From IMG/VR virus record IMGVR_UViG_3300020146_000002, positions 1 through 43,989 of that record: a stretch of DNA of 43,989 bases; one strand, 5' to 3'. Every line of letters starts with the position of its first letter. Position 1 is the first letter of the stretch. Shown piece by piece: positions 4,919 through 41,709 of this stretch. The notes under the pieces were generated by a model that was not told the DNA's origin, searched no databases, and saw only the letters and a program-made list of their open reading frames with translations. This DNA comes from a virus. Both the position numbers and the translations under genes were made by a program.

Positions 4919-5721
4919 TCGTCCACACTCACGCCGTTTTCGCGCCAGATTTCTTTCAGGGTTTCATGAATTTCCGGGTCTGATGCGTCTTTCTCAATGC
5001 GCATTTTCTGCACGCCGCCCTTGCGCACCCAAGTTGCGCGGTCGTCGTCGTACCTGCCTTTCTTGAACCAACGTTCTGGATCCGGCACATACTGCAGAGC
5101 ATCCGCCGGCCACATTTTGACAGCAGCCGCGTAAGCCTGAGTTGCTTCAAGCAAGGTTTCGTAGGACTTATCGCGTAGGGCATCGCCTATGCGGGCCAGT
5201 GCAGCCTGCTTGCCGGTCTTTTTGGGATAGGCCTGATAAATAGCCTCTGCCTGGGCAGCTTTCGTTAAAGCCTTTTCGCCATCATCCGCCGCCTGTTTGT
5301 TATGTATGTCTGTACTGTCTGTACTGTGCTCAGAGCATGCTCCGAGCGTGCTCTGAGCGTGCTCTGAGCAACCTTTCACATCGAGCCACTTAATCTCTGG
5401 ATGCGAAAAGACTTGGAACGCTTTTGCGAATGTTTTTTCGGGTGCGCAGGTTTTGTCAGACAGGTCTTTTGCCGTTAAAGGGCCGTCCTCGTCAGCCAAA
5501 ACACCCCGAGTTTTGCATTTACTAGCCACCTGAACGATTAATTGCCATGCGCCATACATCTCAACTGCGATTTTCGGGAACAATTTGAAGAGACGTTTGT
5601 AAGATTTGCCGTCGTGCTTGTTCGGAACGGCCACCCACTTCAAGTTGCTGTTCTCGCGTCGTGATTGAGCGATTTCGTAGTGGTCGGCCCAATTGCGGAT
5701 ACTATAGAGGGGTCTTTCCAT
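4915..5721 (-). CDS. Replication initiator / helicase-loader-like protein (lambda O-like), 268 aa
   Basis: Directly upstream of the primase-helicase and coupled to it (ATGA). The N-terminal part (residues 1-115, WADHYEIAQSRR onward) looks like a winged-helix initiator domain. The C-terminal part has YPKKTGKQAALARI and YVPDPERWFKKGRY, a motif pair found at the C-terminus of lambda O/DnaT-like replication proteins. The middle (about 116-138) is a low-complexity linker rich in Ser, Glu and Thr, encoded by tandem DNA repeats that may be the origin. The ATG follows immediately after the upstream TAA, with GGGGAG before it. Function is inferred from motif and position. Confidence 0.65.
   Translation of the reverse strand: MERPLYSIRNWADHYEIAQSRRENSNLKWVAVPNKHDGKSYKRLFKLFPKIAVEMYGAWQLIVQVASKCKTRGVLADEDGPLTAKDLSDKTCAPEKTFAKAFQVFSHPEIKWLDVKGCSEHAQSTLGACSEHSTDSTDIHNKQAADDGEKALTKAAQAEAIYQAYPKKTGKQAALARIGDALRDKSYETLLEATQAYAAAVKMWPADALQYVPDPERWFKKGRYDDDRATWVRKGGVQKMRIEKDASDPEIHETLKEIWRENGVSVDE
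5308..5371 (-). repeat. Iteron-like tandem repeats: candidate replication origin
   Basis: Four perfectly contiguous 11-base units GCTCNGAGC[A/G][T/A] at 5328, 5339, 5350 and 5361, each with the palindrome GCTCNGAGC. They are preceded by two 9-base units GTCTGTACT at 5308 and 5317. They lie inside the replication-initiator gene, as lambda ori lies inside O. The 11-base period is about one helical turn, so a protein would bind on one face. Confidence 0.65.
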
Positions 5722-9118: not shown

Positions 9119-9393
9119 TTTGCTTTCTTCCCTTTCTTCACACGCTTGCGGAGTTCTTTGCGTCCTTCATCAGTAATGCGCGTTGACTTAAATATGCCGC
9201 AATCAAATACCTCTACCCATCCATGCCTTAAGCACGTTCCGGCGATACGATTTCCGAATGCGTTAAGCACAGCGCCTTTACCACGCGGAAAAGTTGCCAG
9301 ATTGTTTAATAATAGAGTCTGCTTTGGGCTCACCTCGCACCATTCCCCTTCTTCACACGCGATTTGCGAGCGAAGGGCGGCAAAAAATCTCAA
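9115..9393 (-). CDS. Winged-helix-like protein, 92 aa
   Basis: The frame is open to 9483, but its first 30 codons overlap the gene at 9390-9581. A TTG at 9393 overlaps that gene's TGA (TTGA), so it is taken as the start, although no clear Shine-Dalgarno is present. GTG (VSPKQT) is an alternative. The body (SPKQTLLLNNLA..., GNRIAGTCLRHGWVEV, TRITDEGRKELRKRV) reads as a winged helix-turn-helix with a basic tail, suggesting DNA binding. Confidence 0.5.
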   Translation of the reverse strand: MRFFAALRSQIACEEGEWCEVSPKQTLLLNNLATFPRGKGAVLNAFGNRIAGTCLRHGWVEVFDCGIFKSTRITDEGRKELRKRVKKGKKAK

Positions 9394-9581
9394 CGGCGTG
9401 AAGTGGCACAGACACCCTTTTCGCCAACATTCCCGCGCCAGATGGAATAACCATCTTCCCCGCGATTCCATCCCCTTTGGCACATCGGCAGGCCAGGATT
9501 ATCAAACGTGCCGTGATATAGATGCGACACGACGTTTCTTTCGGGATTGCGGTCCTGACCAACGATGTACTTCTTCGCCAT
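9390..9581 (-). CDS. Hypothetical protein, 63 aa
   Basis: Starts MAKKYIVGQDRNPERNVV, with GGAAGGAA just before the ATG. A Gly/Trp-rich stretch (GWNRGEDGYSIWRG) suggests a compact beta fold. No known family. Two other frames over the same bases lack ribosome sites. Confidence 0.55.
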   Translation of the reverse strand: MAKKYIVGQDRNPERNVVSHLYHGTFDNPGLPMCQRGWNRGEDGYSIWRGNVGEKGVCATSRR

Positions 9582-9598
9582 TGGTTCCTTCCTTTTTG

Positions 9599-9609
9599 TG
9601 AAGCGGGGC
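9599..9609. repeat. TGAAGCGGGGC copy (first of three)
   Basis: Same 11-mer as at 10015-10025 and inverted at 10211-10221. Seen on the leftward strand it lies just before the ribosome site of the gene starting at 9581 and overlaps the stop of the preceding gene. Confidence 0.6.
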
Positions 9610-10001
9610 TAAAGTTCAACGCCCACGAGTGCCTTTTCAAAAGCTTGCTGCAAACACGGCGAGCGCTGATACATGTCGATAAACTCCACCGCCGCTTTTA
9701 AGTTCTCCAGTGTTTTGCACACCGCTATCTGCACACCGTTTCTTGACACTTTGTAACCGTTGGAATCTGCGGTTAATTCGTAGCCACTTTTCTTTAGCCA
9801 CTTCTTAAACTTCCGAGCAGCATCAAGAGACGGCGCACGGACAATCACGGTTTTATTTGCCGCGTGCTGCCAACTGCTTGATTTCTGTCCTCCGCCGCCA
9901 TGTCCAACCCGCCCTGATTTGCTCCGTCCAGGGCGCTTAAACCCGCTCGCTCTAGCCTTGCGTCTGTCGCGACGAACTGAACGCTTTCGAGATTTACGCA
10001 T
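9609..10001 (-). CDS. Basic hypothetical protein, 130 aa
   Basis: The first 45 residues are very basic and Gly/Ser-rich (MRKSRKRSVRRDRRKA), probably disordered and nucleic-acid-binding. The remainder has an alpha/beta look (KTVIVRAPSLDAARKFKKWLKKSGYELT). AAGGAG precedes the ATG. The 11-mer GCCCCGCTTCA lies before its ribosome site and again after its stop, so the gene is flanked by direct copies. Confidence 0.6.
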   Translation of the reverse strand: MRKSRKRSVRRDRRKARASGFKRPGRSKSGRVGHGGGGQKSSSWQHAANKTVIVRAPSLDAARKFKKWLKKSGYELTADSNGYKVSRNGVQIAVCKTLENLKAAVEFIDMYQRSPCLQQAFEKALVGVEL

Positions 10002-10010
10002 GGAAACTCC

Positions 10011-10221
10011 TTAATGAAGCGGGGCAACAAACCTCGAACCCTTCAGTAGTGAGCACAGGTTCATCGCGCTTGCGGCCTTGACTCCAGCAGTGTGCCAAAC
10101 CGATGCTTGGCCCGAACGCTACTTAAGCGCGCTACATCCTTCCGCCGCACGCGCCTTCACGTCCCGAATCAGCTTGGTAGTAACCCCTGTCGTCCTCACA
10201 CTTGCGAGTCGCCCCGCTTCA
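10011..10221 (-). ncRNA. Candidate structured RNA, about 211 nt
   Basis: This gap lies between the exonuclease gene and the gene at 10001. Read leftward, it opens and closes with perfectly complementary TGAAGCGGGGC and GCCCCGCTTCA (11 bp). Inside are CGCGCTT/AAGCGCG (7 bp), enclosing GCCAA/TTGGC (5 bp), and a separate GAACC/GGTTC hairpin (5 bp), giving a branched fold. The 5' closing strand includes the exonuclease stop codon and the 3' strand abuts the next ribosome site, so it may be a cis-acting leader or a processed RNA. Short frames also cross it (one ends KRDEPVLTTEGFEV without a start site), so a decayed gene is the alternative. Confidence 0.4.
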
Positions 10222-10848
10222 CTTCTCCGTTAATGCCGCTTGTGGTTGAAGTCGTTCAAGAGCCTCGTCGAAACGTTCAAGGAAATTCGTCAGCGCCTCG
10301 TGAATCTGCGCGTTTACCGCTTCGCTGCGCTTCACTTCACGCACGAACTTTGGAAGCTTTCGATGGTAGGCAACGAACAGCCAGGATTGAAAGCCCGTGA
10401 TGTAAAGGCCCGTATGTATCTGGATAAGGTATTCCTCGGGCACGGCGTTCGTCATTAAACACTTCACATGGTTCACAGGCTGCATGCACTTGATTTCAAG
10501 CCCCATGTTGCCATTGATAATCCCGTCTGGCGAACACGCCGCCCGTCCATCATCGCGCATGCACATTCCAACACGTTCAATGTCGTAGTCGTATTCCAGC
10601 GCGAGCCACGGGAGCGCGTAATCTTCTAAAATCTCTCCCTGTTCCATCTCGCCGCTACTAAACGACAGCAGCGGCCCGCCCATCAGTTTCTCGGCAATCT
10701 TTTGCGCCAGATACGTAGCCGGCATTTGCCCCTCGCGGATTGCGAACTTCGGCGTTAGCAGATTTCCCATCTCTGAAGCTGTTGGAATGGATGCCCTCGC
10801 GGCAAGCCACGCGGCGGAACCCTGAAGTAAGTCGCGGCGGATAATCAT
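10219..10848 (-). CDS. YqaJ/lambda-Exo-type recombination exonuclease, 209 aa
   Basis: Probably resects double-strand ends to feed the ERF annealing protein encoded just upstream. Visible motifs: QGSAAWLAARASIPTAS at about 9-25 (the QGS..W...R....TAS signature), EQGEILEDYA, SPDG (D108), GLEIK (E118, K120) and QIHTGL (Q143), the D-ExK-Q order of the lambda-exonuclease/YqaJ family. Length is normal. The ATG is coupled to the ERF stop (ATGA). Confidence 0.85.
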   Translation of the reverse strand: MIIRRDLLQGSAAWLAARASIPTASEMGNLLTPKFAIREGQMPATYLAQKIAEKLMGGPLLSFSSGEMEQGEILEDYALPWLALEYDYDIERVGMCMRDDGRAACSPDGIINGNMGLEIKCMQPVNHVKCLMTNAVPEEYLIQIHTGLYITGFQSWLFVAYHRKLPKFVREVKRSEAVNAQIHEALTNFLERFDEALERLQPQAALTEK

Positions 10849-11669
10849 GTTGGCACCTTGTCGCTTGCGGCCTTGAGCTTCGCTTCTTTCTTGTCTAGAA
10901 GGCGCACGAGTTCATCGTGCATAGATGCAGGAATCATCTCAAAATCGACGGCCTGCGCGTATTTCAGAAAGGTTTCTCTGTCAATCTTGAGGTACTCACA
11001 GCGCTCCTCAATCCGCCGCGCCTGTGCTTCCGTGATTGGACCCCCTTCAGCGCGGGCGTCGTCAAAACGTGCGTCGTTGTCAGCGCCAATGACAATGTTT
11101 AATGCGTCGCACAGGACGTAACGCTTCGCAAATGTTGAAGCCCCGCCGTCATTCTGTGCGTCGCTGCAATTTTGGATGTTAGGGATTCGTACCGCAAAAC
11201 TGTTCGTCTGCTTGTGCCCGCCAACGTGTTGCAGTGTGCACGACTTGACCAAGCGGCAAGGTGGACCGACTTGATAATCAGTGCTAAATGTGACAGTAAA
11301 CCCATGCGCTTTCAGCAGGGGCGATACTTGTCCCATGATGTCCTCGAAGGGCGCGTAGTTGTAGAGCGTCGCGCCCATCTTCGTTTTCACTTCCTTTGCC
11401 GCTTTGACTTTGTGTATTTCGGATTGCAGCGCAATGAACGCCTGGGCGAACGCCTTCTCAGCACTCCGTGCTTCCTCGTGCTCTTTGAACTTCATCAACT
11501 CGCCGACAACCTGCACCGATTCCAGTGTGATACCCTTATCGATTATCGCCGTGAGCATTGCGCCCACGTTGAGCGGCTCCGCTCGTTCAATCCCCGTCTC
11601 TTTCGTCGCCTTCGCCAATTCCGCTTTCATCGTTCCCCCTTTATGTGCTTCCGCGATTGCTTTGGACAT
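10845..11669 (-). CDS. erf: ERF-family single-strand annealing protein, 274 aa
   Basis: Promotes annealing of complementary single strands during phage recombination. The core at about 95-200 has YNYAPFEDIMGQVSPLLKAHGF and a later block ending GGASTFAKRYVLCDALNI, both characteristic of the ERF superfamily. The C-terminal 75 residues (TEAQARRIEERCEYL...) form a helical domain of the kind seen in other phage annealing proteins. An in-frame ATG at 11630 has GGGGGAACG before it and is an alternative start. It forms a two-gene recombination system with the exonuclease. Confidence 0.85.
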   Translation of the reverse strand: MSKAIAEAHKGGTMKAELAKATKETGIERAEPLNVGAMLTAIIDKGITLESVQVVGELMKFKEHEEARSAEKAFAQAFIALQSEIHKVKAAKEVKTKMGATLYNYAPFEDIMGQVSPLLKAHGFTVTFSTDYQVGPPCRLVKSCTLQHVGGHKQTNSFAVRIPNIQNCSDAQNDGGASTFAKRYVLCDALNIVIGADNDARFDDARAEGGPITEAQARRIEERCEYLKIDRETFLKYAQAVDFEMIPASMHDELVRLLDKKEAKLKAASDKVPT

Positions 11670-13888: not shown

Positions 13889-13992
13889 TGGCGAGTCATG
13901 GAATCGAACCACAGTCCTCCGCGCCCATATCGAACGTTGCCCTAGGCCGTCGCGATACTTCGTCAGATGTGCTACCACTGCACCAACTCGCC
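13889..13992 (-). tRNA. tRNA-like RNA, 104 nt, probably non-decoding
   Basis: Read leftward: a 7-bp acceptor stem GGCGAGT/ACTCGCC with discriminator A, a perfect 4-bp D arm (GTGC-AGTGGTA-GCAC), and a T arm with loop TTCGATT. The place of the anticodon and variable arms is taken by about 55 bases containing a hairpin TATCG...CGATA with inner ACG/CGT and GCC/GGC pairs. The only possible anticodon loop (CGAAGTA) lacks T33 and sits on a mispaired stem. CCA is not encoded. It could be a decayed tRNA, a tRNA interrupted by an insertion, or a tRNA mimic. Confidence 0.4.
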
Positions 13993-14040: not shown

Positions 14041-14538
14041 TTATGGCACGTGCTTCCATGTGCGCCTCTTTCGCACGTGTTCGACCGTCGTATAGCTGAG
14101 GCCGTATTGCTTGCTTATTTCAGGAATAGTGCGAGGAGAGGCGCGGATTTCCCGAACCAACTCTGGTGTTAGTTTCTTCGCATAGCCGCTCTTATCGCCG
14201 CGCTCTTGAACATCTCGGACATTGTCTGAGAACGTGCCTGCGTATAAATGATTGGGATTCACGCAATCTTTAACATCGCACTTGTGGCAGATTAGTAGCC
14301 CCGCTGGTATGGGACCATTGACAAGCTCATAGGCATAGCGATGCGCCTGTACATAGCGCTTGGGATTAAGGAAAAAGCCATAGCCATTTCCGGCCTTGCG
14401 ATACTTCCACAGCCAGCACTTATTCGGCGCTTGCACATCAACCTTCGACCAAAACCATTTAACAATATCGAACCCAGGAACGCTCATAGCGCTTATCCGT
14501 GTTCTGCGCTTCTTAACTGTCTTAGTCGTGTCGCTCAT
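14041..14538 (-). CDS. HNH endonuclease with C-terminal HTH, 165 aa
   Basis: Cuts DNA, probably as a free-standing homing-type endonuclease. AHRYAYELVNG, CHKC (metal ligands) and CVNPNHLYAGT are the HNH/zinc signatures (numbering from MSDT: about residues 65-102), followed by NVRDVQERG. The tail PEISKQYGLSYTTVEHVRKR is a helix-turn-helix for site recognition. MSDT at 14538 has AAGGA nine bases upstream; the ATG at 14547 is an alternative. It lies between a tRNA-like element and a 14-bp inverted repeat, a setting expected of a mobile insertion. Confidence 0.8.
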   Translation of the reverse strand: MSDTTKTVKKRRTRISAMSVPGFDIVKWFWSKVDVQAPNKCWLWKYRKAGNGYGFFLNPKRYVQAHRYAYELVNGPIPAGLLICHKCDVKDCVNPNHLYAGTFSDNVRDVQERGDKSGYAKKLTPELVREIRASPRTIPEISKQYGLSYTTVEHVRKRRTWKHVP

Positions 14539-14563
14539 TGTTGGCATTTCCTTGTCTTAAAAC

Positions 14564-39821: not shown

Positions 39822-41542
39822 TCTTTTATTCTGTCCGTTAACTCGTCCATCAATTTGCCAATCTTCTCCGCCCGTTTCGTGTCGCCTGTCTCTACAAATC
39901 TCTGCCTAGTCAATGCCAGTTGCTGCAGCGCCAGCGGAATCTTCCCTACTTCCTCGTCTGCCCCCCCCACTGTCATTGTTGCGGGTTCGTCGCCGACGAT
40001 TGCGGGCTCGTCGAAATTCGCGCCTCTCGATTCGTTATCAATCGCCGTGCGGGTTTCGCTGCTGGCGGAAGGTGTGAGCGAATTAGCCACGTCGGATAGT
40101 TGCTCGCGCAAGGCGGATTCGGGATAGCCTTTAATCTTTTGCGCCGTGACGAGGTGGCTAACCTTCTGGTCCAGCGTGAGAATGTCGCAATATTTCAGCC
40201 CGCGCACTTTTGGCTCTTCGTTGGAAATCTCTTTGCGGAAATCAGTGATTAACTGGATGGCTGCAATTAGCGCCGTGCGCAGTCCGGCGGCATAGGCCGT
40301 CAGCATGGCGCTTAACGGTTCACGGTCGATTGATTTCGCCTGGGCGGACTGGCGCGCGTTCTGCGTCTGCGTGCCTACCATGTTTAGCCCGATGGACTGA
40401 AATACCTCGTAGATGTTTTCTTTCTTGTTCTGCAGGTCTTTGAATAGCCATTCCGTTGCGCCCGATTGCGGGCCAACGAATTGCGCGGAGCCGCCTGGGC
40501 CCAAATCTAGCGCGCCCATAGAAACATCGGGTATCTGTGAAATCTGCTTATCTGACGAGATTGCGAGCACTTGGAAAGCAAGCCCGTTGAGATGCCATGT
40601 CAAAGAGGCGTCACGGTTGTAGGCCGCGAGAACGGAATCCTCCATGCGCTGCATTGCCCATAGTCCCTGATGAATCTTTAGCGGGATGACGGGCAGGCGC
40701 GGAAAGCCGTGGGGCTTGGGTTCCTTGCGAGTGACAACGGTATCTTGATTTGGCTTGTTGGTGTCGTTGTAAACGATTTCGTATTCGATGAACTCGGTTT
40801 CAGTTATGTACGTCCACAATTCCCGCGTCTTTGCGGCTTTGCCAATGGGCGAAGCGTACACAGCATCCTTGCGGTAAGTGCGGATCCACTTCAACTGCGG
40901 GCCGTCTTCGCGCCAGAAATCCACGTCGCGCGCGCACAAGACATGCAGCGTCGGGTTGTATCCGCCCTTGTCTTTCTGGTCAGTGCGGTTCTTTCCTTCC
41001 ACGCCGGGAGCCTGCACGGCAATGAACGTGCGGAAGTGCTTCAGGTGGTCCAGTCCTGCATTGCGCAGCATGAGCGCAAGCGGGGTTCCCATGCCGTCAG
41101 CACTAGCATTCAAATCTTTCCAATACTGTTCGTTGCCGATGATTTCCGGCGCATCTTTGAACACGGCAGAAACGAAGAAATCCAGCACGCCGGCTACGAG
41201 ATTTGGGTAGCGGCTTACACGCTTGCGCTCTTCCCAGCGCGACTGCATCCCATGAAACGCAGCCTTGGCGTCGTGCGCTACACCGACATTTTCCTTAGAT
41301 GTGTCGATAGGCGCGGCGAGTTTCGCCTTTTCAAGCTGGCGCTGGTCCAGATAGTTTTCGATGTTCTTACGGAACTGCTCGCCACCACAGTAGAGGTCTT
41401 CATACTTTTCTAAGAGGTCGGGGCGGTAATCGGGGTGCTTGGCGGATATTTCGCCGTAGGTTACTTGAGACGGAAATTCCGATGGCTGCGATGTGCCAGC
41501 GCCCGCAGAGGATACTGTCGAATTTTCATTCGGCGCAGCCAT
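39818..41542 (-). CDS. Portal protein, 574 aa
   Basis: First gene of the late operon, upstream of scaffold and capsid. Length and architecture are portal-like: a helical middle with YEDLYCGGEQFRKNI and a C-terminal helical crown rich in Gln/Glu. Portals form the dodecamer through which DNA enters the head. I assign by position and overall pattern, not by a diagnostic motif. Promoter about 60 bp upstream. Confidence 0.7.
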   Translation of the reverse strand: MAAPNENSTVSSAGAGTSQPSEFPSQVTYGEISAKHPDYRPDLLEKYEDLYCGGEQFRKNIENYLDQRQLEKAKLAAPIDTSKENVGVAHDAKAAFHGMQSRWEERKRVSRYPNLVAGVLDFFVSAVFKDAPEIIGNEQYWKDLNASADGMGTPLALMLRNAGLDHLKHFRTFIAVQAPGVEGKNRTDQKDKGGYNPTLHVLCARDVDFWREDGPQLKWIRTYRKDAVYASPIGKAAKTRELWTYITETEFIEYEIVYNDTNKPNQDTVVTRKEPKPHGFPRLPVIPLKIHQGLWAMQRMEDSVLAAYNRDASLTWHLNGLAFQVLAISSDKQISQIPDVSMGALDLGPGGSAQFVGPQSGATEWLFKDLQNKKENIYEVFQSIGLNMVGTQTQNARQSAQAKSIDREPLSAMLTAYAAGLRTALIAAIQLITDFRKEISNEEPKVRGLKYCDILTLDQKVSHLVTAQKIKGYPESALREQLSDVANSLTPSASSETRTAIDNESRGANFDEPAIVGDEPATMTVGGADEEVGKIPLALQQLALTRQRFVETGDTKRAEKIGKLMDELTDRIKE

Positions 41543-41588
41543 CGGAATCTTTGAATCCGGGGGACTGCGAGACTTCGCACGGTGGAAA

Positions 41589-41616
41589 GTATTACAACGT
41601 ATTACTTTCTTGTCAA
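41589..41616 (-). promoter_or_regulatory. Late leftward promoter
   Basis: -35 TTGACA (41616-41611), 16-base spacer, -10 TAATAC (41594-41589). Its -35 overlaps that of the rightward promoter. Two GTATTAC copies 10 bp apart sit at 41589 and 41599. Confidence 0.5.
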
Positions 41617-41638
41617 TAACAAAAACTTATGATAATGT
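41610..41638 (+). promoter_or_regulatory. Rightward packaging promoter
   Basis: -35 TTGTCA (41610-41615), then GATAAT at 15 bases or TAATGT at 17 bases, in a very AT-rich region. Shares five bases of its -35 with the leftward promoter. Confidence 0.45.
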
Positions 41639-41709
41639 GATTAACGATAGTTTTTCATTATGTGATGCAGAGCGGGTAGTTTCCTTTTAGTTTCCTTGGG
41701 GGAGGGGCA

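Follow-up and report, generated by a model that had tools for sequence, protein, structure and literature searches.

Complementarity between an exonuclease stop codon and two downstream leaders: a candidate long-range coupling helix in a viral recombination operon

The window analysed here is a whole virus record of 43,989 bases. The element of interest, its RNA and the surrounding genes lie on the minus strand, which corrects the orientation given in an earlier note on this DNA. An ERF recombinase gene is followed by a YqaJ exonuclease gene, a gap, and two genes coding for proteins of 130 and 63 amino acids. The features are as follows, all on the minus strand.

10845-11669, minus strand: ERF-family recombinase gene, preceding the exonuclease gene (Pfam search)
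10219-10848, minus strand: upstream gene, YqaJ-type phage exonuclease of 209 aa (Pfam YqaJ, E 1.9e-17; PHROG 149 exonuclease, E 7e-29)
10221-10219, minus strand: exonuclease stop codon TGA (UGA in the RNA), the first three bases of 5′ arm A
10211-10221, minus strand: 5′ arm A, UGAAGCGGGGC, an exact match that starts at the exonuclease stop codon; in the pairing with the distal copy A′2 it lengthens to 12 nt, GUGAAGCGGGGC (inverted-pair listing)
10026-10210, minus strand: enclosed non-coding spacer of 185 nt, with six-frame coding scores at background and structure not beyond chance
10015-10025, minus strand: proximal 3′ arm A′1, GCCCCGCUUCA, an exact match within the leader of the 130-aa gene
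10007-10012, minus strand: Shine-Dalgarno sequence (SD) AAGGAG of the 130-aa gene, 2 nt past A′1
10001-9999, minus strand: ATG of the 130-aa gene, five bases past AAGGAG
9609-10001, minus strand: 130-aa downstream gene (Arg-rich N terminus; C-terminal part predicted as helix, three strands, helix)
9599-9609, minus strand: distal 3′ arm A′2, GCCCCGCUUCA, an exact match, with the C after it forming a 12-nt complement of the 5′ arm
9587-9594, minus strand: Shine-Dalgarno sequence AAGGAAGG of the 63-aa gene, past A′2
9581-9579, minus strand: ATG of the 63-aa gene
9390-9581, minus strand: 63-aa downstream gene (a relative of 43% identity in the unannotated gut phage record MT835534.1, E 1e-4)

The exonuclease gene is separated from the 130-aa gene by 217 nt, against a median gene gap of −1 in the operon. 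This gap looks non-coding: its best frame has a codon score of −0.01, compared with 0.29 ± 0.13 for real genes, and all six frames score at background, in agreement with the earlier reading that it holds no supported gene. Coding in any frame was rejected on the codon scores together with protein searches. The 130-aa protein has no match in Pfam or PHROG and no relative among phages or viral contigs; its structure model is of low confidence (mean pLDDT of 55), with no PDB match at E ≤ 0.001, and its gene scores 0.094 for codon usage, where the gene mean is 0.289.

Searches for known RNA families and signals were negative within their ranges. An Rfam search, suggested in the earlier note, gave no match at the element at the gathering threshold and none in 9500-10400 up to E ≤ 5. 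A tRNA or tmRNA was rejected, as ARAGORN finds none at the element with default or intron settings and yields low-quality candidates only with thresholds relaxed to 70%. Neither a sigma-70-type promoter-like site (9300-11000) nor, on the minus strand of the same range, an intrinsic terminator (GC-rich hairpin and T run) was detected. Elsewhere in the window, a tRNA-like gene at 13889-13992 on the minus strand adjoins an HNH endonuclease gene (14041-14547). It scores 42.6 bits with the Rfam tRNA model and has good acceptor, D and T arms, but it lacks an ordinary anticodon arm and carries some 33 additional bases; ARAGORN reports it only with introns allowed (35 nt, 'Pro ggg').

The 11-mer TGAAGCGGGGC occurs exactly at 10015-10025 (plus strand) and 10211-10221 (minus strand), and a third time, again without mismatch, at 9599-9609 (plus strand). 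The earlier note had described an element spanning 10011-10221 and closed by an 11-bp stem, with a further copy of the 11-mer at 9599, the exonuclease stop codon in the 5′ strand and the 3′ strand abutting the next ribosome site. All of these observations are borne out, save that the stem starts at 10015; its other limit, 10221, is correct, the TGA lies within arm A, and A′1 ends 2 nt ahead of AAGGAG. The pairing of A with A′1 comprises 11 Watson-Crick pairs, which the minus-strand RNA extends to 14 continuous pairs including one G-U (UGAAGCGGGGCGAC / GUUGCCCCGCUUCA); this continuous 14-bp helix is available in the mRNA sense only. The distal copy, which begins on the final base of the TAG stop codon of the 130-aa gene, forms 12 pairs with A, and one 5′ arm is thus complementary to two leaders. 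Two other repeats lie in the neighbourhood: a 17-base near repeat (88%) between the end of the exonuclease gene including the 5′ arm (10209-10225) and a site inside that gene (10322-10338), and a stretch of 15 spacer bases (10067-10081) that recurs exactly, in direct orientation, where the ERF gene ends (10862-10876).

The stem and the third copy are real and their placement is non-random. Of Markov sequences as long as the element, 0.4% contain an inverted repeat that is perfect over 11 or more bases (p 0.004). About five inverted 11-mers no more than 300 nt apart are expected by chance per window, so that across the window the stem alone is not decisive. This is, though, the only 11-mer in the window with three copies inside 700 nt, for which the simulated expectation is 0.03 per window. 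Each stop-codon context was also set against the three gene leaders that follow it, using a gene list hand-picked from the open reading frames (n = 165). The two longest complementarities, of 12 and 11 bp, both involve the exonuclease stop, paired with the leaders of the two genes after it; the next reaches 9 bp and most are 4-6 bp. The position of the arms is a stronger argument against chance than the stem itself.

The interior of the element does not stand out. The whole element folds with a z-score of −3.66 on the minus strand (−1.6 on the plus strand), and its free energy of −91.3 kcal/mol is the lowest of 417 minus-strand windows, although by z-score it ranks fourth, with three windows better. 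With the arms removed, the z-score is −1.1 and 29 of 200 shuffled sequences fold equally well; it is the closing helix, then, that supplies the extra stability. The branched architecture proposed earlier, with internal helices of 7, 5 and 5 bp, is therefore not upheld; any such sequence offers internal helices of 5-7 bp, and these need no explanation. Two minus-strand windows inside genes (5206-5521 and 41431-41640) also have unusually stable predicted folds, with z-scores of about −4.2 to −4.6.

The best explanation, to which we assign a probability of roughly 0.42, is that the arms form a cis-acting long-range mRNA helix coupling translation of the downstream genes to termination on the exonuclease gene. 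One of the complementary strands would lie under ribosomes translating the upstream gene and the other lies near the downstream ribosome site, the arrangement expected of such coupling. A non-coding gap of 217 nt in an operon with a median gene gap of −1 also speaks for it. The helix would be located in an early polycistronic mRNA and would form when the exonuclease stop codon is free of ribosomes; a GC-rich stem would then occupy the upstream portion of the 30S landing site, and initiation would fall. Given the usual ribosome footprint, the 11-nt 5′ arm would be hidden beneath a ribosome terminating at the UGA, which would release the 3′ arm. Output of the 130-aa protein would then follow exonuclease translation in proportion, as would that of the 63-aa protein by means of the alternative pairing. 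Of the two roles suggested by the earlier note, a regulatory one is thus plausible for the pairing, given the top two of the 165 stop-to-leader complementarities; a separate branched, processed RNA is not supported, in view of the interior z-score and the lack of an Rfam match, a sigma-70-type promoter-like site nearby or a homologue in the records searched.

Partition-function calculations qualify this proposal. In folds ending upstream of the distal copy, the predicted A:A′1 pair probability is 0.997-0.999. Once the distal copy is included, the balance between A:A′1 and A:A′2 flips with the segment ends (for example 0.05/0.95, 0.52/0.47 and 0.99/0.01). Two alternative pairings of similar energy are thus predicted, the forced-pair energies differing by only 0.5-3.3 kcal/mol, in a type of long-range prediction that is unreliable in detail. 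With the stem formed, the SD of the 130-aa gene is predicted to be 0.71 unpaired; with a ribosome modelled on the stop codon this falls to 0.41, and the 3′ arm is freed only to 0.35. Simple SD sequestration is accordingly not what these models predict, and since the SD is mostly free when the stem is formed, any repression would need to operate by way of the landing site's upstream portion. A more elaborate version, a one-to-two RNA switch in which the exonuclease-stop strand would pair exclusively with either of the two successive leaders, and ribosome traffic would decide which downstream protein is made, appears improbable.

Translational coupling by RNA unfolding is a known kind of control, of which the element is a probable member. 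In phage f1, a hairpin ending shortly before gene IX is thought to block its translation until the upstream gene VII is translated (PMC12548453). The candidate helix similarly ends just ahead of a downstream ribosome site, within reach of ribosomes terminating upstream; however, the f1 genes overlap by 4 nt, whereas here a long-range helix would bridge 217 nt and a single 5′ arm would be contested by two downstream leaders. Coupling by RNA unfolding has been shown experimentally for Escherichia coli rpmI-rplT and for MS2 coat-lysis (PMC12548453). In those cases too, upstream translation is believed to keep structure from forming at the downstream ribosome site; that structure surrounds the ribosome site, unlike the present one, which is predicted only and leaves the SD largely free. 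Coupling is most efficient across short intergenic distances (PMC12548453), which counts against the proposal.

Among the relatives found, the closest YqaJ proteins in IMG/VR reach 48% identity and the nearest terminase 54%. A covariance model found no homologue of the element in 98 related loci or in 31 whole viral records; as it was built from a single sequence, and as records very near the window may fall outside the searched set, this means that homologues are not common, not that they are absent. Searches by protein neighbours, by the end pattern in IMG/VR and by blastn in phages and plasmids also returned no homologue. In two unclassified viral contigs from distant ERF-YqaJ phages (L003, 7390-7440; L005, 5698-5760), a strong GC-rich hairpin lies directly past the YqaJ stop codon (fold z-scores of −5.98 and −3.2, respectively). 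Unlike the present helix, these are local hairpins of unrelated sequence, and that of L005 is followed by a T-rich, terminator-like tail (ATTTTT). They hint that control at the junction after YqaJ may recur.

The main rival to a coupling helix is that the repeats are DNA-level leftovers with no role in RNA, the 130-aa gene and its ribosome site being a cassette between 11-bp direct repeats (9599-9609 and 10015-10025), and the inverted copy a product of chance or template switching. The gene is flanked exactly by the two direct copies, and its stop codon overlaps the distal one; no relative was found for it, its codon score is low, and shared leader stretches of 11-12 nt elsewhere in the window make the direct repeat alone unexceptional. 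Such a cassette is a possible, if doubtful, account: it leaves unexplained an inverted copy that starts at the upstream stop codon, none of the other stop-to-leader comparisons in the window reaches this length, and a perfect inverted repeat of such size has a low chance probability (p 0.004 as above). That a small MITE-like insertion with terminal inverted repeats supplied the exonuclease stop from its end, leaving a lone end at 9599, is highly improbable. The dimensions would suit (207 bp, perfect 11-bp ends, a stop codon at the edge and a third copy of the end), but no target-site duplication is seen at the ends and no second copy occurs in the window or among IMG/VR records searched for the end pattern; blastn against phages and plasmids gave only short, chance-like matches, and none of 797 genomes holds a full-length copy. 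Derivation from duplicated exonuclease or recombinase sequence was rejected, the only match being one of 15 nt to ERF (p 0.013 before correction, ten tests).

Two further accounts concern what the gap itself might encode. A decayed small gene is suggested by a frame containing RDVKARAAEG, which is open across most of the gap except for one TAG and has an intermediate codon score. Two short database matches to the spacer (26-27 nt) fall there; both lie inside genes and were judged to be chance, and one encodes DVKARAVEG in the same frame. We consider this very unlikely, as the translated frame has no Pfam or phage match, no ribosome site is seen, TAG also ends other genes here and only 2.4% of true gene pieces have codon scores as low. 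An RNA cut from the mRNA, for example by RNase III within the closing helix, could serve as a regulatory RNA or stabilise a transcript end. The lowest free energy among the 417 windows and the hairpins past the YqaJ stop in L003 and L005 speak for it; those hairpins are, however, not homologous to the element, the interior is no more structured than chance, and neither an Rfam match nor a sigma-70-type promoter-like site accompanies it. The 14-bp helix is also shorter than classical RNase III sites. Such processing is not likely, and on the evidence at hand neither is a stand-alone processed RNA or ribozyme.

If the coupling helix is real, a phage recombination operon links two downstream genes to translation of its exonuclease over more than 200 nt by means of one reusable strand, a compact design that could easily be tested with reporters. 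If the pairing has no function, the locus carries a caution, namely that a long closing stem can give an ordinary spacer the look of a branched RNA.
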